Shown in pieces: positions 1,072 to 55,184 of a DNA stretch of 64,000 bases (its first letter is position 1; every line of letters starts with the position of its first letter). Where the stretch lies: NCBI RefSeq assembly GCF_000020785.1, contig NC_011126.1, forward strand, positions 1,178,001-1,242,000, read 5' to 3'. The position numbers were made by a program, and so were the translations under genes. The stretch comes from Hydrogenobaculum sp. Y04AAS1 (GTDB taxonomy: Bacteria > Aquificota > Aquificia > Aquificales > Aquificaceae). Below the pieces are notes generated by a model. It was not told the DNA's origin and ran no database searches. It worked only from the letters and a program-made list of their open reading frames with translations.

Positions 1072-2520
1072 ATGCGAAGCATTAAAACCACAGAAGAGTT
1101 GGTAAATATCTTAGAAAAAGAAGGCGAGCTTATAAAGGTAAAAGACCCCATTGACATTCATTATGAGATAACAGAGATAACAGATAGAATGTGTAAGACA
1201 AAAGACCCAAAAGCTCTACTTTTTACAAACGTAAAAGGCTACAATGTACCTGTTCTCACAAATGCCTTTGGTTCTTATAAAAGGTTAAAAATCATCTTTG
1301 GTTATGAAAACCTTGAAGATATAGGCTGGAAGCTTTATAAAGTATTAAGACCAGAGATACCAAATACATTTTTAGAAAAGCTTAAAAAACTCCCAGAATT
1401 AAAAAAACTAAACGACGCACTACCAAAGGTAGAATCTAAAAACCCATATAAAACCTTTAGTGAAAGTGTATTTGATATACCGGTTTTAAAGTGCTGGCCC
1501 AAAGATGGGGGAAGGTATATAACACTTCCTCAGGTTATCACAAAAGACCCAGAATCAGGTATCAGAAACGTAGGGATGTACCGTATACAGCTTTTAGAAG
1601 AAAAAAAAGTAGCTCTTCATTGGCAAATACACAAAGACGGAAACTCACACTTTCATAAGGCAAAAAGACTTGGTAAAAAATTACCAGTAGCTATAGCAAT
1701 AGGTGCAGATCCAGTTTGTACTTACAGCGCATCGGCACCTCTTCCACCAGAAGTGGATGAGTATTTGTTTGTAGGTATGGTAAGAGAAAACCCTGCAGAG
1801 CTTGTAAAAGGTAAAACCGTTGATATAGAATATCCAAAATACGCAGATTTTGTAATAGAAGGTTATGTAGACCCAGAAGAACCACTGATAGATGAAGGGC
1901 CTTTTGGAGATCATACTGGCTTTTACACACCGGTAGATAAATACCCAGCGATGCACATCACAGCCATTTTATCTAAAGATAATCCAATATATATATCCAC
2001 TATAGTAGGACCACCACCCCAAGAGGATAAATACCTTGGCTATGCTACAGAGCGTATATTCTTACCCCTTATTAAGTTTAACTTACCAGAGGTAGTGGAT
2101 TATCATCTTCCAGCAAGTGGAGTATTTCACAACTTTTGCTTTGTTTCCATAAAAAAGCGCTATCCTGGGCACGCTTTTAAAGTAGCGTACGCTTTGCTTG
2201 GGCTTGGGCTAATGTCTTTGGAAAAATACATAGTGGTTTTTGATGAATGGGTAAACGTGCACGATATAGACGAAGTGCTTTGGATATGGGGCAACAACAC
2301 GGACCCATTAAGGGATATAATCATCACAAAAGGACCCATAGATGTACTTGATCATTCTACCAACGAAGTAGGCTTTGGTGGTAAGATTATAATAGATGCC
2401 ACAAAAAAACTAAAAGAAGAAGGATATACAAGGATATGGCCAGAGGTGGCTAAAACTGACGATGAAACAAAAAGAAAGGTTGATAGCATATGGCAAAACA
2501 TATCAAGATTTTTATCTTAA
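1072..2520 (+). CDS. ubiD: UbiD-family prenylated-FMN decarboxylase
   Basis: 482 aa, close to the family length. The central segment around residues 165-290 carries UbiD hallmarks: NVGMYRIQLL, the ALHWQIHKDG region, PVAIAIGADP and the acidic active-site stretch IDEGPFGDHTGFY. UbiD enzymes use prenylated FMN to decarboxylate 4-hydroxybenzoate-type or demethylmenaquinone precursors. The substrate cannot be told from sequence; a quinone-biosynthesis role is the usual inference in Aquificales. No ubiX is visible nearby. It is probably transcribed with rimM. Confidence 0.9.
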   Translation: MRSIKTTEELVNILEKEGELIKVKDPIDIHYEITEITDRMCKTKDPKALLFTNVKGYNVPVLTNAFGSYKRLKIIFGYENLEDIGWKLYKVLRPEIPNTFLEKLKKLPELKKLNDALPKVESKNPYKTFSESVFDIPVLKCWPKDGGRYITLPQVITKDPESGIRNVGMYRIQLLEEKKVALHWQIHKDGNSHFHKAKRLGKKLPVAIAIGADPVCTYSASAPLPPEVDEYLFVGMVRENPAELVKGKTVDIEYPKYADFVIEGYVDPEEPLIDEGPFGDHTGFYTPVDKYPAMHITAILSKDNPIYISTIVGPPPQEDKYLGYATERIFLPLIKFNLPEVVDYHLPASGVFHNFCFVSIKKRYPGHAFKVAYALLGLGLMSLEKYIVVFDEWVNVHDIDEVLWIWGNNTDPLRDIIITKGPIDVLDHSTNEVGFGGKIIIDATKKLKEEGYTRIWPEVAKTDDETKRKVDSIWQNISRFLS

Positions 2521-2524
2521 AAGC

Positions 2525-2551
2525 TAAAAAAACTTTAAAAACCTCCGATAT
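2525..2551 (+). promoter_or_regulatory. Sigma-28 (FliA) promoter of flagellin
   Basis: TAAA at 2525-2528, then exactly 15 bases, then TCCGATAT at 2544-2551. This fits the sigma-28 consensus TAAA-N15-GCCGATAA and sits 30 bases upstream of the flagellin ATG, with an AGGAGG ribosome-binding site between them. Confidence 0.8.
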
Positions 2552-2580
2552 GTTAAATAACAAGTTTTAGGAGGTGTGTT

Positions 2581-4398
2581 ATGTTATCAATCAATTTTAA
2601 CTACGGTGCGCTTGTAGCTAACAACGCTTTACAACAAGCAAACCAAAATGTTACCAACGACATCACTCACATATCCACAGGTTTAAGGATATTGAGTGCA
2701 GCAGATGACCCAGCTGGTCTATTTATAGCAGACCAATTACATACGTTGGGTACAGCTTTAGGACAGGGTTATTTAAATACCCAGCAAGGCTATTCTTTGG
2801 CTCAAGTGGCTGATGGACAACTATCTCAAATCTACAACACTCTAAACACCATGTACACTTACGCCGTTAACGCTGGTAACTCCACCAACAACATAAACTC
2901 AGCTGGTGCTTTACAAAACCAAATATCAGCTTTAGCACAATCTATCAAACAAATCGTTAACACCACCACGTTTAACGGCAAAGCACTTTTCAATGGTAAT
3001 TTTGTAAACCAAGCCATTCAATTTGGTGGTCAAGCTGGTCAGTATATAAACATATCCATAGGCAACCTATCCATAGAAAGAATGGGTGCTGCTATAGCCC
3101 AAACTGGAGATTTTACCAATGTAAACAACGGTTCTACCGCCGCAAATATAATGGCTTACTACAGTGGTTCCGGACCCATAAATGTAAGCACCACAGCAAG
3201 CGCCACAACTTACGATGGTGCCAATACAACTGCTTCACAAACAGTAGTAACATCCGATGTATTGTTTGATGGTAACAAACAGCTATTTATAAACGGTAAC
3301 GAAGTTGTAGCAAGTGCATACGCCTCAGCCACAAACGCATACTTAGATGCAAATATAATAGCTGGCAACATAAACTCTGTATTCAACGGTACAGTTACAG
3401 CCCAAGCTTCCAACACACTACAAGGTACAGAAGCTTTCGGTACTATACAAGTAGCATCTTCTGCTACAGTAAGTATAGTAATATCAAGACAAGTAGAACA
3501 AAGCAGCACTGTAGGTGTTGGTTTTACATCACTTACAAACGCATCAGGTCAAGCAGAACAACTTGCAAACGGTCAATACGTAGGTACTGTATCTCAGACT
3601 ATAAACCTAGTAGGTGGACAAACATACAGCTTACAAAATATAGTATCTGCTATAAATGGTGTTGCTACAAATACTGGTGTGTACGCCACCACAGACTCTA
3701 CAGGTCAATACTTACAACTTTACACCACAGACGGTTCTACATTCCAAATAAATGTAAACGTAAACAACGCCCTTGGAGCATCAAGCTCACAACAAGCCAC
3801 ATACGGGTTAAACTTGGCAAAGTTTGGTGCTGTAACACCTGCAAGCTTAGACGGTACAGCTTCAGCTACATATGGAGCTGTAGTATCTGTGGGTTCATTG
3901 CAGATTACAAGCCCATCAAACCTACAAGTTGCATCATTTGGTCAAGGCGCAAGTACAAGCGACAATCTTATAAACAACCTTGTGTTCAATACACAAGTGT
4001 CAAACAGCTATATAAACGGATATAGCTCCACAAACACCACAACGGTAAACGGTGTCCAAACAGCTGGTTATAACTACTTTGTAAAAGATCTATTGGCTAT
4101 AAACGTCACCAACACCCAAGGTGCAAACCAAGCTCAAATAATACTCCAAAACGCTATAAACTATGTTGATACCATAAGAGCTCAAGTAGGTTCTGTAATG
4201 CAACAAATGCAAACGCTTGCAAACGGAGATCAAACAGGTCAAACTAACACATTGAACGCTGAAGCAGCTATAAGAGACTTAAATGTATCTCAAGCAATGA
4301 CCCAATATCAAAACGACAATACACTACAACAATCAGCCCTCGCAATGTTAGCTCAAGCAAACGCAGTCCCACAACAACTTCTCACGCTCTTCAGATAA
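2581..4398 (+). CDS. fliC: Flagellin
   Basis: 605 aa filament protein. The N-terminal D0/D1 region (about residues 1-170) has NNALQQANQNV, ISTGLRILSAADDPAG and repeated Gln/Asn heptads. The C-terminal D1/D0 region (about 520-605) ends LAQANAVPQQLLTLFR. Between them lies a roughly 350-residue domain rich in Ala, Ser, Thr and Asn, the variable surface-exposed part. There is no signal peptide, as expected for type III export. The RBS AGGAGGTG ends shortly before the ATG. It is monocistronic between the sigma-28 promoter and a terminator-like hairpin. Confidence 0.95.
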   Translation: MLSINFNYGALVANNALQQANQNVTNDITHISTGLRILSAADDPAGLFIADQLHTLGTALGQGYLNTQQGYSLAQVADGQLSQIYNTLNTMYTYAVNAGNSTNNINSAGALQNQISALAQSIKQIVNTTTFNGKALFNGNFVNQAIQFGGQAGQYINISIGNLSIERMGAAIAQTGDFTNVNNGSTAANIMAYYSGSGPINVSTTASATTYDGANTTASQTVVTSDVLFDGNKQLFINGNEVVASAYASATNAYLDANIIAGNINSVFNGTVTAQASNTLQGTEAFGTIQVASSATVSIVISRQVEQSSTVGVGFTSLTNASGQAEQLANGQYVGTVSQTINLVGGQTYSLQNIVSAINGVATNTGVYATTDSTGQYLQLYTTDGSTFQINVNVNNALGASSSQQATYGLNLAKFGAVTPASLDGTASATYGAVVSVGSLQITSPSNLQVASFGQGASTSDNLINNLVFNTQVSNSYINGYSSTNTTTVNGVQTAGYNYFVKDLLAINVTNTQGANQAQIILQNAINYVDTIRAQVGSVMQQMQTLANGDQTGQTNTLNAEAAIRDLNVSQAMTQYQNDNTLQQSALAMLAQANAVPQQLLTLFR

Positions 4399-44274: not shown

Positions 44275-44559
44275 AAGATTCTTTTAGATGTAAGAATTGA
44301 TAAGAAAGAATTTGATTTGGATAAAGTGATGGATATGTTTTGTTGTGAAGGGTATATTTATATTCCTTTTGATGAGATTGTAGATAACGAAAATTTAGAG
44401 TATATGTTAGATAAATCAAAGGAATATTTTGTAGTTTGTAACAGTGGCAATAAAAGTAAATATGTGGTAGATATGTTAAATAGTTTAGGTTTTAAAGCTT
44501 TTAATATAGAAGGAGGATTAAAGGGATTGTTAGAAGATGATAAACTCAATGTTTCTTAA
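44266..44559 (+). CDS. Rhodanese-domain protein starting inside the repeat array
   Basis: 97 aa from the ATG at 44266 (an ATG at 44233 in frame would add 11 repeat-encoded residues). The rhodanese active-site loop is VVCNSGNKSKY with the persulfide cysteine; KILLDVR and AFNIEGGL are family landmarks. The first codons (MHT) are the end of repeat unit 4, so its native 5' end seems replaced by the repeat. AGGAGA stands 13 bases before. The 3' end overlaps convergent cargo gene by 14 bases. It may supply sulfane sulfur. Confidence 0.78.
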   Translation: MHTKILLDVRIDKKEFDLDKVMDMFCCEGYIYIPFDEIVDNENLEYMLDKSKEYFVVCNSGNKSKYVVDMLNSLGFKAFNIEGGLKGLLEDDKLNVS

Positions 44560-45469
44560 ATAAACTTCCCACCGTTAGAGCATTTACAACTTTTGCTATA
44601 TCTTCTTCTTTTGTTTTTGGATTTTCTAAGAAAGCTTCTAAGTCTTTATAGTGTATCTCTCTTCTTGATATTCTATCTAAAATCCATTTTAGATCGGAAT
44701 CTTCTACACCACTTTCTATAGCTTTTATTTGATTGGAAGCTGTTTCTTGATCTTTTATCTGATAGGCTATTATCTCATCTTTATTTTCAAGCATGTTTAC
44801 ATTGTTTGGCAAAGAAAAGTTTGGTTTTTGACCTTTTTCTGATATCTCTTCGGCTATCCAGCCCATATGTTTCATTTTATCTATAGCTCTTTGTTCTAAC
44901 TCATCGCTCAAAGACATATCTTTGTGTCTTGTTACAAAAGACTGATATAAGGTTTCTAATATAGTCTGATATTGTTTTTGCAAAAATGTATTTAATGTGC
45001 TTACTATCTTTAGTTTGTTTTCATCTAAAATAGGATTTTCCCCAAACTCTTTTGATGTTTCTAATACCTTTTTCTGAAGATCTTTGAAAATATGTAGATG
45101 TGAGTTTTCATCATCTATAATCCTTTCAAATATCTTTTTTATGCTTTTATCTTCTATATTGCTTAGTTGTTTTGAATACTCTTCTATGGCCATGCTCTCA
45201 GCTTCTATATCAAGCTCAAGCAAATCTTGAAGCGTAGGGGCTTCCAAAAATACTTGGGCCCTTTTGTCTATAGCTGGTATACCGTTAAGCTCTACTACTT
45301 TATGGGCAAACATGCGAAGGTGTTTCATCTCCTCTCTTGCTATCTCTTCGAGTTTGTTTTCTAAGCCTTCATCGTTTATTGTGTAAGCGTGAAATAAGTA
45401 TTGGATAATAGCAGAATGCTCTAAGCTTATGTTGTAATTTAGGTATTCTACGATTGTTTTGTTATCCAT
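44546..45469 (-). CDS. Encapsulin cargo: two-domain ferritin-like protein
   Basis: 307 aa. Domain 1 (about residues 1-140) is a four-helix ferritin-like bundle with Glu17, E47-x-x-H50, Glu91 and E121-x-x-H124, a full diiron ligand set. Domain 2 (about 155-285) looks like a second bundle, but at the expected ExxH places it has K198-x-x-H201 and EIH (271-273), so it seems degenerate. The C-terminus ends ALTVGSLFKKH: LTVGSL is the encapsulin-targeting peptide. It is 11 bases downstream of the encapsulin gene. It should oxidise and store iron, or guard against peroxide, inside the shell. Confidence 0.88.
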   Translation of the reverse strand: MDNKTIVEYLNYNISLEHSAIIQYLFHAYTINDEGLENKLEEIAREEMKHLRMFAHKVVELNGIPAIDKRAQVFLEAPTLQDLLELDIEAESMAIEEYSKQLSNIEDKSIKKIFERIIDDENSHLHIFKDLQKKVLETSKEFGENPILDENKLKIVSTLNTFLQKQYQTILETLYQSFVTRHKDMSLSDELEQRAIDKMKHMGWIAEEISEKGQKPNFSLPNNVNMLENKDEIIAYQIKDQETASNQIKAIESGVEDSDLKWILDRISRREIHYKDLEAFLENPKTKEEDIAKVVNALTVGSLFKKH

Positions 45470-45480
45470 AAATGCCTTCC

Positions 45481-46317
45481 TTATTCTGTAGTGACTACCG
45501 CTGATGGATTTTTTATTCTAAAAGCCAAAATCTCAAACACTCTAAAGTAATAATCCATATTCTCATAATCTATAAAAGCGCTTATCATATCTTGTACTAA
45601 AAATATATCCATATTTTCAACACCAGTGGCAACCGCTATGGTTTTACCCTCATCAACAGCATGGCTTGTGAAAACTCCTACATCAAAAAGTTCTTTTATA
45701 TGCGTTATTTCCAGTACACCGCTGTTCCCATATATCCTAAAAGCCTTTGTATAGTCTTTTGGATTTAAAATATAGGCTAAGTTCTTGCTAAAACCTTTTT
45801 CTACCAGCGTTTCCACGCAAGCTAAAGCTGTTTTAAATATACCGCCTTCCTCGTCAAAGTTTTTGTTTTTAATTATACTTCTTCCTTCTACATTTAAAAG
45901 CCCAGGATACCCAATCTCGCTATCTCCATGGAATATAAACCTATCCTCTGCCAAAGCCACTTCTCTTGTTGCCAAAGCCACTACGCTTACATCCAAGGGT
46001 ATATTTAATTTTCTACTGGTTTCTATGTCTCTCCAGTGTATCTTAAAGTCTTTGTAAATCTGGGGGATAGGTAAAAATTTTCTTGATTTTATTTTGGCTA
46101 TACCGCATTCTTTGTCCCCAAAAAGCCCACAAGCTCCATTATCTAAGCTTGGTATAGTATCGTAGGCCACCGATTGAATAGCTGGATCGAGAGCTTGGGT
46201 TAGCTCTATAAACCTTCTACCTACTAAGTGGTTTCTAGCGGTATTTACCACGATGTTGTCTATTGTTTGCCACTCTTGAGCTGTTAGTGGGCTTTCTTCT
46301 CTATGCAAAAAGTTCAT
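45481..46317 (-). CDS. Encapsulin shell protein, family 1 (linocin M18-like)
   Basis: 278 aa from the ATG at 46317 (eight bases after GGAGG); a longer frame adds 11 residues lacking a ribosome-binding site. The fold is HK97-type: FLHREESPLTAQEWQTID at the N-terminus (which holds the cargo-docking surface), GRRFIELT, then ALATREVALAEDRFIFHG and HAVDEGKTIAVATGVENMDIFLVQDM. It self-assembles to a protein shell. Relic of a second copy at 51604-51680. Confidence 0.92.
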   Translation of the reverse strand: MNFLHREESPLTAQEWQTIDNIVVNTARNHLVGRRFIELTQALDPAIQSVAYDTIPSLDNGACGLFGDKECGIAKIKSRKFLPIPQIYKDFKIHWRDIETSRKLNIPLDVSVVALATREVALAEDRFIFHGDSEIGYPGLLNVEGRSIIKNKNFDEEGGIFKTALACVETLVEKGFSKNLAYILNPKDYTKAFRIYGNSGVLEITHIKELFDVGVFTSHAVDEGKTIAVATGVENMDIFLVQDMISAFIDYENMDYYFRVFEILAFRIKNPSAVVTTE

Positions 46318-46371
46318 GATTTTATCCTCCTCTTTAAGATTATAACCCAAATTTATTATTTTGTGTATGAG

Positions 46372-47916
46372 TTAAATGTAAAAAGTTGAAACTTTCCCCC
46401 ACTCAAAACCCACAATGTTTTTATCTTTTTTGCTAAACTCTATTCCTATTAGGTATATATCATTATATTTGCTCTTATACTTTTCATAATACCTTTTTTC
46501 TTTTATCTGTTTTAAAGCTTTTCCTTCTTCTTTGTCTTCTACCACTTTAAACTCTATTATATAAACGCTGTCCTGGTTAAAGACACTTAAATCTATCTGG
46601 CCTTTGTTGGTGTTGTCTTCTGCTATCACATTTAGCCCTGCTCCGTTAAAAAGAGCATACACAATAGATGCGTAAAAACCCTCGTATGATGCTATATCGT
46701 TTTTCCTATACCAATCATGGGGTATGCTGGCAAAAAATGTGTATATAGCATCTTTTAGTTTGTCTATATCTTTCTCTTTAAGAATTTGCTTTATATTAAG
46801 CTCTGTTTTGGTTATCCTACTAGCATCAAAATCTAAATATATAAGAAGAGCGTTGTTTAAACTTTTTCTTACTTCTAAGTTTGGATAAGATAGTATATAC
46901 ACCCCATCTTCTTCTAAAAACTCTTTTATTGTAAGATAACCAGCTTGAAACAAAAGATTTTCTATCTTTATGTTATCCACATCAAGGTTTGATAAAATCT
47001 CATCTCCTACTTCAAGGTTCTCAAGCTCTGGGATGTAGTATCTGTTTTTCATAAACATCTTAATAAGAAATGTAGGTGTTCCTGTCTCAAACCAAAAGGC
47101 TCTAAACCTTTTTTCTGAAAAAAGAAGGAGTATATCAAAAGGATTGTAAACGCTCTCTCCAAGCCAAGCATAGCCGTTGTACCACTGTTTTATCTTTTCT
47201 TTATCAAAATCCTTTAGTCTATCGGAAAACACACTTTCAAGCTCAGATTGGGTATAACCGCATACTGTTGAAAACTCTTCATTTAAAGTGATATCTTGAA
47301 GCTGGTTTAATCCACTAAAGATTGATACTTTCGAAAATCTTGATACACCTGTTAGGAATACAAGTTTTAGATAAGGATCAGCATCTTTTAACACCGAATA
47401 AAAATCTTTAAGTATCTCTCTATTTTCTCTTGCTATCTCGATATTTTCTATAGCATCCAATATCGGTTTATCGTATTCATCTATTAGTACTACTACTTTT
47501 TGAGTGTATTTTTCGTATAGTTTTTGGATAAGTTCTAAAAACATTTGGCTTGGACGCTTTTCTTTTAAGTTTATCTGTTCTTTTTCTGATATCCTATTTA
47601 CTTGAGATGTCATTAGATCCAATAAAATATCTGAAGTTCTTATATTTCCACTTGCAAAGCTTATTTTTACCACCGGGTATTTTTTCTCCCAATCCCAATT
47701 ATCGTATAGATAAAGCCCTTTAAAAAGTTCTTTGTTGCCAGAAAAGGCTTCTTTTAGTGTGTCAAGAAAAAGGGATTTACCAAACCTTCTTGGGCGAGAT
47801 AGAAAATAATACCCACCATTTTCTAATTTTTTAACAAACATTGTCTTGTCTACATAATAGTAGTTGCTGTTTCTTATTTTCTCAAACGTTTGTATGCCAA
47901 TAGGTAAATATTTCAT
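46372..47916 (-). CDS. AAA-ATPase-like protein with PD-(D/E)XK-type C-terminus
   Basis: 514 aa. MKYLPIGIQTFEKIRNSNYYYVDKT opening, Walker A-like SRPRRFGKSLFL and VVLIDEYDKPILDAI Walker B identify the AAA-ATPase-like/DUF1703 family. C-terminal nuclease-like motif GQIDLSVFNQDSVYIIEFKV gives D and E-x-K. These families are widespread and their role is unclear. Located between the encapsulin locus and the phase-variable cyclase. Confidence 0.88.
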   Translation of the reverse strand: MKYLPIGIQTFEKIRNSNYYYVDKTMFVKKLENGGYYFLSRPRRFGKSLFLDTLKEAFSGNKELFKGLYLYDNWDWEKKYPVVKISFASGNIRTSDILLDLMTSQVNRISEKEQINLKEKRPSQMFLELIQKLYEKYTQKVVVLIDEYDKPILDAIENIEIARENREILKDFYSVLKDADPYLKLVFLTGVSRFSKVSIFSGLNQLQDITLNEEFSTVCGYTQSELESVFSDRLKDFDKEKIKQWYNGYAWLGESVYNPFDILLLFSEKRFRAFWFETGTPTFLIKMFMKNRYYIPELENLEVGDEILSNLDVDNIKIENLLFQAGYLTIKEFLEEDGVYILSYPNLEVRKSLNNALLIYLDFDASRITKTELNIKQILKEKDIDKLKDAIYTFFASIPHDWYRKNDIASYEGFYASIVYALFNGAGLNVIAEDNTNKGQIDLSVFNQDSVYIIEFKVVEDKEEGKALKQIKEKRYYEKYKSKYNDIYLIGIEFSKKDKNIVGFEWGKVSTFYI

Positions 47917-48060: not shown

Positions 48061-48507
48061 ATGAGCGATAATAAATATGATAACGATACTATATATATTA
48101 GAACTATAAAAGCCCTTTGGGAAAATTACCTAAAAACCGGTGCAGTGGACGAGGATGCTATAAAAAACATAGCAAAAGAGGCTTATGATAAAGTCCATTT
48201 GGCTTATTTAAAGCATATCATAGAGGATATTAAAAACGACGTGGTTGAGAGTTTTTATGAAAAGAATCCCTTCACAAAAGAATCCTACGCTAAGATAGTG
48301 TTTTTCTTCAAAAAACTAAGAAATATACTCTCAAGATATCATGCAATCAGTTATTTAGAAAACTTTGAGCTTTTGGAATCAATGCTTTATGCCGAAGATG
48401 TAATGTCAGGGTTTCTTAGATCAAGCAAAGAACTTAAAGATGCCATCACAAAAGGTTTTATTGAACTTACTCCCCCCCCCCCCCCCCCCCCCCCCCATAA
48501 CTTTTGA
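48061..48507 (+). CDS. 5' part of a diguanylate cyclase gene, frame broken at the poly-C tract
   Basis: 148 aa, helical N-terminal segment ending in eight prolines from the C tract and HNF before the stop. Not a recognised domain. With 24 Cs rather than 25 (or 27) it would read through into the following frame, giving a 743-residue protein. As sequenced it is the truncated, off-phase product. Confidence 0.75.
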   Translation: MSDNKYDNDTIYIRTIKALWENYLKTGAVDEDAIKNIAKEAYDKVHLAYLKHIIEDIKNDVVESFYEKNPFTKESYAKIVFFFKKLRNILSRYHAISYLENFELLESMLYAEDVMSGFLRSSKELKDAITKGFIELTPPPPPPPPHNF

Positions 48508-50293
48508 CGCTCGCGCTTGTCCTGGATACGATCTTATAGAAAATGCAGCAGTAGAAGATGATATAAAAAAAGAGCTTCACAAAGCTCACGAGAGGATTCA
48601 TTGTGCAGCTAAATATTTTTACAAGCTTATAGAACAAGGTGATATCGACAATCTTTACGATATATACTGGAATATAGAATATCTAGGCATCTTGATAATA
48701 ACAACCGTAGCTCTTCACAAGTTAAAAGATCAAAATGAATTTTACAAGACATTTTTTGAAGGACACAGTATACCCATGCTTTTTGTGGATATAGATACTT
48801 ATTCTATAGTGGATGCAAACAAAGCAGCCCTTATGTTTTATGGTTATACCAAAGAAGAGATTACGTCTTTGAAAAATTGGGATATAAACATACTTGGCGA
48901 AGAAAAGATGAAAGAACTTGTTCACAAAGCAAAACATAAAGAGCTAAACTTCTTTAAGTTTAAGCACAGATTAAAATCTGGCGAGATAAGAGATGTGGAA
49001 GTTTATTCATCCCCTGTTCGTCTAAATGGCAAAACTTACTTACTTTCAATAATAAACGATATTACAAAAGAAGAGAGAACAAGAAGAGTCTTGGAGATAT
49101 TTAAAGAGATAGAAAATCTTGGCATTACATCTGATAACGAAGATATATTTTTTGAAAAGCTTTTAGATGTGCTTGAAAAAGAGGATATGTTTAAAGATGT
49201 ATGTATATTGATAAGGCACAAGGGCACCGATGATACGATATCTTCATCAAAGACACGCCTTGAGGACATAGGAGAATCTTTATCCTCTTATATCATACAT
49301 ATATTAAAAAATGGTGATACATACGGTTCTATCAGGCTATACTCCAAAAAAGAAAATTACTTCGATGAGTATCAAGAAATCTTGCTAAATTTGAAAGATA
49401 AAATAGAGCATACGCTAAATACCATAGAACTAAAGAAAAAATTAGATTATCAGAACAAGCTTGTTAAAAGTATCATCCAGAATACCAAGATAGGCGTTTT
49501 GGTATTTGATATGGATGGTGTTTATTATGCAAATGACTACTTTTTTGAGCTTTTAGGATACGATTTTGATGAGCTAAAAGCTTTAACCATATTTGATATA
49601 TTATCACCTATTCATGTAAAAGACCTTATAGATGCTTTTGCAAACAAAATGCCTATACTTTCACAGGAGTTCCATGTTTTTAAAAAAGACAATAAAATAC
49701 TTTTTGTAAAAGGGACTTTAGATTTTATCAGAAATCCTGAAAACAAAGACAACGCTGTTTTCACATTTGTTGATATTACCAAGGAAAAAGAGTTGTCTGA
49801 GCTATTGTTAAAACAATCCATTGAAGATACTCTTACAGGAATTTACAACAGAAGGTATCTTAAAGATAAATTAGAAAGGCATGTAAATTTGGCAAAAAGA
49901 TACGAAAGACCACTTAGTGTTATTATGTTTGATATAGATTTTTTCAAGCATATAAACGATACTTTTGGTCACGATGTGGGTGATAAGGTGCTGATAGCTA
50001 TTTCAAAAGTGGTATCAGAGAACATAAGAAATACCGATATCTTTGCAAGATACGGCGGTGAGGAGTTTATCATTGTAGCTCCAGAGACTACAAAAGAAGA
50101 TGCCAAAATATTAGCTGAAAAACTAAGAAGTCTTATAAGAAATCTTCATTTTGAAGAAGGGATCAACGTAACTTGCTCTTTTGGCGTGGTGTCGTTAGAA
50201 AAGCCCGATACAAAAGAAACGCTTTTAAAACGTGTTGATAATGCTCTTTACGAGGCCAAAAGAACTGGAAGGAACAGGGTGGTAGTATTGTAG
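48440..50293 (+). CDS. 3' part: PAS-(GAF-like)-PAS-GGDEF diguanylate cyclase
   Basis: 617 aa open frame; the ATG at 48440 has no ribosome-binding site and lies inside the upstream frame. After the proline run comes a helical stretch, PAS 1 (FFEGHSIPMLFVDIDTYSIV...NKAALMFYGYTKEE), a linker that may be GAF-like, PAS 2 (NTKIGVLVFDMDGVYYAND) and a GGDEF domain with ARYGGEEFII. RNTD five residues before GGEEF is an intact inhibitory I-site, so the enzyme should make c-di-GMP with product feedback. Likely expressed only when the C tract is in register. Confidence 0.88.
   Translation: MPSQKVLLNLLPPPPPPPPITFDARACPGYDLIENAAVEDDIKKELHKAHERIHCAAKYFYKLIEQGDIDNLYDIYWNIEYLGILIITTVALHKLKDQNEFYKTFFEGHSIPMLFVDIDTYSIVDANKAALMFYGYTKEEITSLKNWDINILGEEKMKELVHKAKHKELNFFKFKHRLKSGEIRDVEVYSSPVRLNGKTYLLSIINDITKEERTRRVLEIFKEIENLGITSDNEDIFFEKLLDVLEKEDMFKDVCILIRHKGTDDTISSSKTRLEDIGESLSSYIIHILKNGDTYGSIRLYSKKENYFDEYQEILLNLKDKIEHTLNTIELKKKLDYQNKLVKSIIQNTKIGVLVFDMDGVYYANDYFFELLGYDFDELKALTIFDILSPIHVKDLIDAFANKMPILSQEFHVFKKDNKILFVKGTLDFIRNPENKDNAVFTFVDITKEKELSELLLKQSIEDTLTGIYNRRYLKDKLERHVNLAKRYERPLSVIMFDIDFFKHINDTFGHDVGDKVLIAISKVVSENIRNTDIFARYGGEEFIIVAPETTKEDAKILAEKLRSLIRNLHFEEGINVTCSFGVVSLEKPDTKETLLKRVDNALYEAKRTGRNRVVVL
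48472..48496 (+). repeat. Poly-C tract of 25 bases
   Basis: Twenty-five consecutive Cs, coding polyproline in either of two frames. It is the junction of the two partial cyclase frames and the only homopolymer of this length in the window. Confidence 0.95.
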
Positions 50294-50302
50294 GAGTGGT
50301 CT

Positions 50303-51607
50303 ATGATTGACTTTAGGGTTTGTCCCCATGATACACAACAAGGACTTGACAAATGGCTTAACATAGCTAAAAAGATAAAGGAAATCTTTGGTCAAGAAGT
50401 AGAGCTTAAGCCTTTTAAAAACTTTAGCGAAGAAGAGGCTTTGTGCTCTATAGATGACTTTAAACCAGATATCTATTATGCAAGTTTTGATATTTCATTG
50501 CTGCTTTTAGAAAAACATTACAAACTTATCGGTAGGTTTAAAAACAAAAACGATGTTTTTTTGGTTATTGGATTAAAAGGAAAAGATATAAACTATCAAA
50601 ATGTAAAAACCGTATCCATTCCAGATAAAGCAATAGCTTTTTATATTTTAGACAAACTAAATCTTTATGATAAAGAGGTTATTCTCCTTGATTCTTTTGA
50701 TGATATGATGGAGTTTCTTCTTAACGAAAAAGCAGATATAGGGATTTTTTATAAAGATTATTATGACGAATTGGGACAAGATATCAAGGACAATCTAAAA
50801 ATCATAGAAAAGTTAGATTTGGATGTAGGTCACTATTTTTTGATATCAGAAGAGTTTTACGAAAAGAATAAGGACAATATAAATAAACTTATTGGGCTTT
50901 TAGATTTAGAAGAAGTCTCCAATGAAGATTTCAACAAGATAAAAGAATATTCTAAATCTGGAAAAATACTCAGAGATCTCGTTATTCATAAAATTCTTGT
51001 AAAAAGCTTGCAAGACATCAACCATTTAATTGTTTCTGCAAAAACGGAAGAGGAGCTATTTAATCAGATCTGCCAAAGCCTTGTGGATAAAAATCATTTA
51101 AAATTTGTATGGATTGGGAAAAAAGATAAAGAGTTTATAAAACCAGTATGCAAGTGTGGTAAAGACGATGGGTATGTGGATAATTTGGTGATAAGCACAA
51201 GAGCAGATGTTCCGGAAGGAAGAGGTCCGGTTGGGACAACTTACAGGGAAAATGAAATTGTCATCAACGAAAACACGTTAGTATCAGAGTTTACGAAACC
51301 TTGGAAAGACGAGCTTTTAAAAAGAGATATATATTCATCCCTATCTATCCCTGTAGAAAAGAGTGGAGAAGTCTATGCGGTAATAACTGTTTATTCAACC
51401 ACACCTTTTATGTTCAAAAAAGAGTTTTTGATTATTTTTGAGGAGTTAAAAAGAGACATTTCTTTTGCTTTAAATAAAATCGAGGAGGAAAAGCTTTTAA
51501 AAGAATTTGCGCTTTTGGTATCTCAGGATGAGGGTTATCGCCTGCTTACAAAAGAAGAATACAAAGAGTTTATAGAAAAGAAGAAAAAAGCCAAAAGATT
51601 GATTTAG
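50303..51607 (+). CDS. Cytoplasmic PhnD-like binding domain plus GAF domain protein
   Basis: 434 aa. The first 215 residues look like a PhnD/ABC-type periplasmic binding fold (FKPDIYYASFDISLLLLEKHYKLIGRF), but there is no signal peptide. Residues about 240-400 are GAF-like (TEEELFNQICQSLV, then SLSIPVEKSGEVYAVITVYS). It has no output domain and starts nine bases after the cyclase stop, so it may be a sensor for it. Its stop TAG is formed by the first bases of the encapsulin relic, so the C-terminus may be truncated. Confidence 0.65.
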   Translation: MIDFRVCPHDTQQGLDKWLNIAKKIKEIFGQEVELKPFKNFSEEEALCSIDDFKPDIYYASFDISLLLLEKHYKLIGRFKNKNDVFLVIGLKGKDINYQNVKTVSIPDKAIAFYILDKLNLYDKEVILLDSFDDMMEFLLNEKADIGIFYKDYYDELGQDIKDNLKIIEKLDLDVGHYFLISEEFYEKNKDNINKLIGLLDLEEVSNEDFNKIKEYSKSGKILRDLVIHKILVKSLQDINHLIVSAKTEEELFNQICQSLVDKNHLKFVWIGKKDKEFIKPVCKCGKDDGYVDNLVISTRADVPEGRGPVGTTYRENEIVINENTLVSEFTKPWKDELLKRDIYSSLSIPVEKSGEVYAVITVYSTTPFMFKKEFLIIFEELKRDISFALNKIEEEKLLKEFALLVSQDEGYRLLTKEEYKEFIEKKKKAKRLI

Positions 51608-53858: not shown

Positions 53859-55184
53859 TCATACTTCCATAAAATCTCCAAAAAATAAATAACTCATGTT
53901 TTTACCAGAGGTTTTTGATACATACAATGCTCTATCGGCTTTTTTAAACAAGGTTTCTTTTGTATCGTTTTTACCAAACTCAGCTACGCCAAGGCTAATG
54001 GTGGTTTTTATAGTTTTGTCCTTGTAAGTGAAGTTTGTAGTTTCTACTATTTTCCTTAGTTTTTCTGAAACAACATACGCTCCAAATATATCTATCTGTT
54101 TTAGTATAATGGCAAACTCTTCCCCACCTATCCTACAAAAAATATCTTCTTGTCTTATGTTGGCTTTCACGAGCTCCGATATACGTTTTAGTATCAAATC
54201 CCCAGCGTCGTGTCCATAGGTGTCGTTTATTTTTTTAAAATCATCTATATCAAATATTATTAGAGAAAAAGGAGCCGTTTTGTTTTTGTAAGCATCTACT
54301 AAAGCATCTAAAATCTCATCAAAGAATCTTCTGTTGTAGGCTTTTGTAAGTTCATCTGTTTCTGATAGCACCTTATACACTTCTCTTTGCTTTAGTTCTT
54401 CTTGAATATCGTATATTGTAGCTATGTTTAGCATGTTTGCTTGATGAATGATTACCGATGTTATTAATTTTGCTTGTATGGGTTTGCCGTTTGCTCTTTT
54501 GAGCGTAAAAACACCAGCTATTTTTTGATAAGGCCTCGGTTTTAAAACACTTATAGTGCTTTCGTTGTTTTCTACTATTATATCTGTAATTTTTTTACCG
54601 TTAAGCTCTTCTATCTTATACTCTAAAAGCCTAAAACACCATGGACTGGCTTGTAATATCCTGAATTCTTCGTCGTATATCAATATGCAGACCTGTGCGT
54701 TTTCATATATATTTTTAAGTAACTCCTCCTTTAACTCAAGCTCGGTTTTTATATGAGTCTTCTCTGATATGTCTTCTACTATGCATAGAAGATGTTTTTT
54801 GCCTTTGTAGGTTATTGGTATTACACTGGTTTCTACATCTTTTTCTCCGTATTTGGTTTTATGTTTGAACAGACATCTTTGATAAGAGTTTTCAAGTCCT
54901 CTTTTTATAAATTCCATAAGATATTCTTTTCCTGCCGTGTTTATGTCAAAAACAGTTTTATTTTCTAACTCTTCTTTTGATATTCCATAAAAAGAAGCGG
55001 CAAAATCGTTAGTTTTTACAATGTTACCATCTTTTGAAACTATAAGTATTGGAAACCCGATGCTAAAAAGCTTTTCTAAGGTTTTATCCTCGGATTTTCT
55101 TAATATTTTTAATATAAATACAACAAGCCCTATGTTTAACAAAGTAGAAAATACCAACAAACTGTTTAAAACGATAGATTTCAT
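53859..55184 (-). CDS. Membrane-anchored PAS-PAS-GGDEF diguanylate cyclase
   Basis: 441 aa. One N-terminal membrane helix (LLVFSTLLNIGLVVFILKIL), two PAS domains (about 40-145 and 155-265) and a GGDEF domain with CRIGGEEFAII. RQED five residues before GGEEF gives an I-site. Both catalytic and feedback residues are intact. The tail overlaps nothing; it converges on the nitroreductase gene. Confidence 0.92.
   Translation of the reverse strand: MKSIVLNSLLVFSTLLNIGLVVFILKILRKSEDKTLEKLFSIGFPILIVSKDGNIVKTNDFAASFYGISKEELENKTVFDINTAGKEYLMEFIKRGLENSYQRCLFKHKTKYGEKDVETSVIPITYKGKKHLLCIVEDISEKTHIKTELELKEELLKNIYENAQVCILIYDEEFRILQASPWCFRLLEYKIEELNGKKITDIIVENNESTISVLKPRPYQKIAGVFTLKRANGKPIQAKLITSVIIHQANMLNIATIYDIQEELKQREVYKVLSETDELTKAYNRRFFDEILDALVDAYKNKTAPFSLIIFDIDDFKKINDTYGHDAGDLILKRISELVKANIRQEDIFCRIGGEEFAIILKQIDIFGAYVVSEKLRKIVETTNFTYKDKTIKTTISLGVAEFGKNDTKETLFKKADRALYVSKTSGKNMSYLFFGDFMEV

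Follow-up and report, generated by a model that had tools for sequence, protein, structure and literature searches.

In this work, we found that a putative diguanylate cyclase (DGC) gene of Hydrogenobaculum sp. Y04AAS1 is interrupted by a run of exactly 25 cytosines (C25), and on balance we lean toward reading this gene as a contingency locus that is switched by slipped-strand errors and recorded here in its OFF frame. The gene lies in the window, i.e., the whole stretch of 64,000 nucleotides that was analyzed (G000:C1:1178001-1242000; Table 1), and the complete genome (1,559,514 bp) was surveyed for homopolymers by pattern.

Table 1. Features of the DGC locus and its neighbor in window coordinates.
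Feature	Position	Strand	Remark
Upstream half of the DGC gene	48061..48471	+	Helical N-terminal part that precedes the tract, with conserved H46 and H52 (alignment columns)
C25 homopolymer	48472..48496	+	Polyproline when in frame (P8 at 24 C); out of frame at the recorded length
Downstream half of the DGC gene	48497..50293	+	Rest of the N-terminal domain, PAS, degenerate GAF-like region, PAS, GGDEF
Premature TGA in the C25 frame	48505..48507	+	HNF-stop
First in-frame ATG past the tract	48776..48778	+	Candidate internal start, not convincing; PAS1 would be cut by it
Next gene	50303..51607	+	GAF protein with a weak phosphonate-binding-like region; 9 nt past the DGC stop

The initial annotation described two overlapping frames that meet in the C run, and direct reading of the sequence agrees with it. 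The upstream ORF (48061-48507; 148 aa) ends with PPPPPPPPHNF and a stop, in agreement with the HNF-stop stated earlier, and the downstream frame is open up to 50293. The proposal that loss of one C or gain of two would fuse the frames into a 743-residue protein also holds, with read-through products of 743 aa at 24 C and 744 aa at 27 C; translation stops after 148 aa at 25 C and after 146 aa at 26 C. A change in tract length thus moves a single gene in or out of frame (24/27 open, 25/26 stopped), at a site that its relatives span. The tract, which lies in a reading frame, is also far beyond the length expected by chance: shuffles gave an expectation of 0.04 matches to C9 in the 64-kb window, and an i.i.d. 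estimate gave 3e-13 C runs of 25 nt in the genome. The length of the tract is known from one allele (25 C, Y04AAS1). A 617-aa ORF has its ATG at 48440, within the upstream ORF, and the first in-frame ATG past the tract has an AGGA-like box. Because this box sits in the EGHSIP codons that relatives share, the earlier statement that the downstream half has no credible start of its own appears fair, but it falls short of being proven.

Comparison with intact relatives indicates that both frames are parts of one DGC gene. Single-ORF relatives of 772-901 aa match both halves together, including the same N-terminus. Two of these are paralogues in Y04AAS1, namely, one of 772 aa (G000:183458-185776; 77-80% nucleotide identity to the window gene) and one of 901 aa (G000:1268243-1270948), and relatives of the latter were found in G030, KMB_Bin01 (L002), and ARK-05 (L001, cut by a contig end). 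All of these read through the site. The relatives carry 15 ordinary bases there (SKNPS, NETPS, NKNPS, or NENPS, then I or V), and in the window gene the C run is preceded by T and followed by ITFD. Since the 901-aa paralogue reads ACACCTTCCATAACG at the site, a simple path for the origin of the tract would be loss of the Ts from a CCTTCC seed of this kind, followed by expansion through slippage. No intact copy of the window gene was found in any other genome compared, and plasmid and phage collections yielded no match. In G030, the nearest complete relative, the first ~55 nt of the window gene are kept, and an insertion that bears a transposase, accompanied by a deletion, has taken the place of the rest, into a nitroreductase gene. 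With the 772-aa paralogue lost from G030 as well, at least one lineage can do without these cyclases. The insertion corresponds to L147 5228-6865, and its flanking deletion took the DGC gene together with the genes up to the nitroreductase gene.

For the encoded protein, the Pfam search and the sequence support the initial annotation in assigning PAS regions and a complete GGDEF domain with GGEEF and RNTD motifs to the downstream half. Two PAS regions and one GGDEF domain (PF00990 positions 3-161 of 161; E 1e-47; 162 bits) were identified, and the RNTD I-site lies five residues ahead of the GGEEF motif, which is the sequence pattern of a DGC. Based on these residues, the product of the window gene probably makes c-di-GMP. 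The GAF-like region has 37 residues fewer than that of the paralogue, and this deletion is in frame. The N-terminal domain, which had no match in Pfam, NCBIfam, or PDB sequences, has five conserved His and one conserved Cys that flank the tract (H46 and H52 before; C149, H169, H172, and H176 after, as alignment columns), and all six are retained in the window gene. In a predicted model of this domain from L002, the tract site falls between two helices (residues 135-145; low confidence), and the polyproline run is thereby predicted, from this low-confidence orthologue model, to sit in a loop of the N-terminal domain. The E. coli protein DgcZ is a CZB-GGDEF cyclase. The window protein is like DgcZ in having conserved His/Cys residues in the helical N-terminal domain of a GGDEF protein, which recalls a metal site, and is unlike it in that a PAS-GAF-PAS region intervenes. 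A CZB identity, suspected from the His/Cys pattern, was not supported: the Pfam and PDB-sequence searches gave no match, and a fold search with the low-confidence model returned empty.

The gene that follows encodes a product akin to the first ~390 aa of a 947-aa GGDEF-EAL protein that adjoins the paralogue. It is possibly co-transcribed with the DGC gene and subject to polarity when the frame is off. Elsewhere in the window, another PAS-PAS-GGDEF diguanylate cyclase gene is located 3.6 kb downstream on the opposite strand (53859-55184). Upstream, an AAA-ATPase-like/PDDEXK_9 gene (46372-47916) has many partial or full copies in Y04AAS1 and related genomes (~70-91% identity), and its 5′ part differs from the G030 version, as if by gene conversion. 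The gene at 45481-46350 encodes what we take to be an encapsulin-shell-like protein (289 aa), which adjoins a 307-aa ferritin-like protein (44546-45469); the two may be an encapsulin-cargo pair.

Selection on the two halves was examined with a codon model on the window-gene branch of a five-sequence tree, and a three-taxon version was also fitted. Because both fits were saturated on the deep and outgroup branches and the paralogue omega was unstable in the short GGDEF segment, only tests on the window branch were used. Downstream of the tract, omega was 0.26 (597 codons; LRT vs. 1 = 22.2), with values of 0.11 in the GGDEF segment (LRT 9.6) and 0.22 in the stretch from the tract to the first ATG (LRT 12). 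Upstream of the tract, omega was 0.50 (133 codons; LRT 0.7, not distinguishable from 1), and 40 of the 89 otherwise invariant positions are changed in the window gene, compared with 25/89 in the paralogue. That the six His/Cys residues are kept despite these changes fits selection on a fused product. Apart from C25, there is no stop or frameshift in 735 codons of the window gene. As judged from these branch averages, which leave the tract itself undated, selection appears to have acted on the catalytic half during most of the time since the duplication.

Homopolymers of at least 10 nt are found at only two sites in the Y04AAS1 genome, and both are on one DGC family. C25 is the sole C/G run of this length, the next longest being one G9. 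The sole A/T run is a T18 (G000:C1:1270966-1270983; L150 4967-4984) that is separated by 17 nt from the start codon (ATG) of the 901-aa DGC gene, the coding sequence of which is intact. On the coding strand, the order is T18-GATATAATTATACAACT-ATG, and an extended -10-like TGATATAAT lies directly 3′ of the T run. Given that GGDEF genes with 100 nt of upstream sequence make up 2.3% of the genome, the chance that the other long run also lands there, given C25, is ~2%, as a post hoc estimate. The 12 A/T 9-mers of the genome are all away from GGDEF genes. Moreover, A/T runs of at least 10 nt are ~30-fold rarer than expected from composition (one observed vs. ~32), and the MutS_I mismatch-recognition domain was not found in Y04AAS1 by a search that was positive in 11/14 genomes as a control. 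From these two results, long runs look purged from the genome, with C25 and T18 retained, and if mismatch repair is missing, long runs would be especially mutable. A consensus promoter scan under a strict -35/-10 rule found no site at T18; upstream of the window gene, the consensus scan found five weak promoter-like sites on both strands, vs. 1.5 expected.

The promoter tract of the 901-aa DGC gene differs among genomes of the genus: T18 in Y04AAS1, T20 in KMB_Bin01 (G033), T7-CG-T9 in ARK-05 (G032), and T6-G-T4 in G030. A related gene of G031 has T8 upstream. The position is conserved, with the T tract followed by GATATAATTATA. The T20 is also the sole A/T run of at least 10 nt in KMB_Bin01, which is a separately assembled genome. 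In G031, a 770-aa GAF-GGDEF-EAL gene (1704-4016) has a T10 (L254 1637-1646, G031:C4) 57 nt ahead of it, and an A11 in the same draft genome (L255 1802-1812, G031:C66:15801-15811) ends a 241-aa glycosyltransferase-like frame and is possibly a frame-switching tract.

C/G runs of at least 12 nt were found in 5/64 genomes of the family. As parallels to C25, we rejected the runs of G004 and G034, which are close to the ends of contigs, and the runs of G025 and G036, which lie within short frames. The G9 of Y04AAS1 (G000:C1:125481-125489; L109 1501-1509) marks a two-frame junction in a GAF-PAS-GGDEF-EAL gene, with the same G9 length and split in G030 and with ATGA and GTGA stop/start overlaps; in Y04AAS1, the EAL part has a second frameshift of 2 nt. 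We rejected G9 as a second switch, since the gene is intact without the run in G033, split without the run in G032, and further frameshifted in Y04AAS1. Together with the stop/start overlaps, this pattern points to decay or fission.

In the proposed switch, slipped-strand replication errors would alter the C count of the DGC gene in living populations. Counts divisible by three (24 = P8, 27 = P9) would give a full DGC with a polyproline loop in its N-terminal domain, and other counts, including the recorded 25, would stop translation at ~146-148 aa, i.e., the OFF state. The OFF frame would probably also bring polar loss of the following gene. The T18 against the extended -10 box of the paralogous DGC gene may add promoter-level variation of a second family member. 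Unstable runs of this kind may let the cells turn c-di-GMP signaling on and off at random, and the switch may affect the amount of c-di-GMP. With 16 GGDEF domains encoded in the genome, however, the global level need not depend on a single cyclase, which leaves the step of the initial annotation to motility versus attachment speculative. More tentatively, and with less confidence than we place in the window gene as a contingency locus, a Hydrogenobaculum genome with no detectable MutS mismatch-recognition domain could be keeping long homopolymers almost only on c-di-GMP genes (C25 and T18-T20, and the T10 in another species, G031). In that case, several independent simple-repeat switches would stochastically set the c-di-GMP network of this free-living thermophile and acidophile.

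A contingency switch accounts for how the frames add up, for the constraint seen in the catalytic half, for the residues kept on both sides of the tract, and for the concentration of long runs on the DGC family. Several results count against it, namely, the upstream omega of 0.50, the 40/89 changed positions, the 37 missing GAF-like residues, the loss of the gene in G030, and the decaying-looking G9 c-di-GMP gene that is split in both Y04AAS1 and G030. The strongest rival is a recent pseudogene, in a genus where this DGC family is easily lost. Such a gene would be an unneeded duplicate cyclase in which unchecked slippage expanded a C-rich spot (the 901-aa paralogue has CCTTCC), with the frame lost for good or soon to be so. 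The relaxed look of the upstream half, the deletion of both the window gene and the 772-aa paralogue in G030, and the two frameshifts in the G9 GGDEF-EAL gene of Y04AAS1 fit this explanation, and the lack of a MutS_I domain in our search would allow the tract to grow. Counting against it are the 735 codons that have no further stop or frameshift, the GGDEF omega of 0.11 on the gene's own branch, and the retained catalytic, I-site, and His/Cys residues. In addition, the only other long run in a genome otherwise purged of them is on a paralogue with an intact coding sequence. We regard a young pseudogene as unlikely.

The other rivals concern how the tract is read or counted. At a leaky frameshift site, a +1 slip of the ribosome on CCC-C or a slip of RNA polymerase would yield some full-length cyclase at any DNA length. 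The shift required from 25 C is exactly +1; two studies treat +1 slippage of tRNA-Pro on CCC-C, restrained by m1G37, as established (PMC4519876, PMC7577736), and polymerase slippage on poly(A) gives in-frame mRNAs from frameshifted Buchnera genes (PMC2831843). Ribosomal +1 slippage may thus make the 25-C state leaky, but heritable length change is still likely at 25 nt, which would make leakiness an addition to switching rather than a replacement, and as a full explanation we consider it improbable. Slightly less probable again is a miscounted tract, for which the true and stable length would be a multiple of three and the gene would simply have a polyproline loop. Long homopolymers are hard to count, this genome is from a JGI project of 2008 (PMC2613243), and the downstream sequence is all open and constrained. 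A miscount would change the present state of the gene, not the instability of its tract. At 24 or 27 C, the run would still be the longest in the genome and prone to slippage. A second, independent long tract is found on the paralogue, also in the separately assembled KMB_Bin01 (T20). Gene fission, in which internal initiation would yield the downstream half by itself and the gene would be shedding its N-terminal part, seems very improbable. The stronger constraint past the tract and the ATG at 48776 with its AGGA-like box would suit it, but the stretch between the tract and this ATG is constrained (omega 0.22, LRT 12) although it would be untranslated, no in-frame ATG is closer to the tract, and a start there would cut PAS1. 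The phase-variable switch that the initial annotation had proposed is partly supported, by the single gene, the exceptional tract, and the T18 on the promoter of the paralogue, which varies in length between species.

Most known examples of phase variation by simple repeats come from host-associated bacteria and concern surface genes. Coding-tract contingency loci include the polyG/polyC genes of Campylobacter and the polycytidine switch in streptococcal mga (PMC4965091, PMC10330708), in which C8, C7, and C6 switch the regulator on or off and alter its length (PMC10330708). Like these, the Hydrogenobaculum locus has a C/G homopolymer within a reading frame, some lengths of which keep the frame and others of which break it. 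Unlike mga (C6-C8), the run is 25 nt long, the target is a c-di-GMP synthase of a thermophilic acidophile instead of a host-interaction gene, and the switching is putative. In its promoter-region repeat tract, the paralogous DGC gene, with a T tract that varies between species, resembles sabA of Helicobacter pylori (PMC2715451), but the target in Hydrogenobaculum is a cyclase and the promoter role of T-tract length is putative.

Stochastic switching placed directly on c-di-GMP turnover genes has a precedent in pdcB and pdcC of Clostridioides difficile, which encode phase-variable phosphodiesterases controlled by promoter inversion (PMC9286219; reviewed in PMC11868660). The Hydrogenobaculum locus shares this placement, with a putative homopolymer switch in place of inversion and a cyclase in place of phosphodiesterases. 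Where a 2025 review links phase variation to c-di-GMP, the enzymes concerned are phosphodiesterases under inversion or epigenetic switching (PMC11868660), and we found neither a homopolymer-switched DGC nor any case from Aquificota in the open literature, with subscription papers being outside the scope of this search. Thus, the kind of switch is known, and its target and lineage are apparently new. C25 and T18 provide a concrete two-locus system that is testable by sequencing one culture. If true, a homopolymer switch on a cyclase in a hot-spring autotroph of Aquificota would extend c-di-GMP bet-hedging to a free-living, deep-branching lineage.
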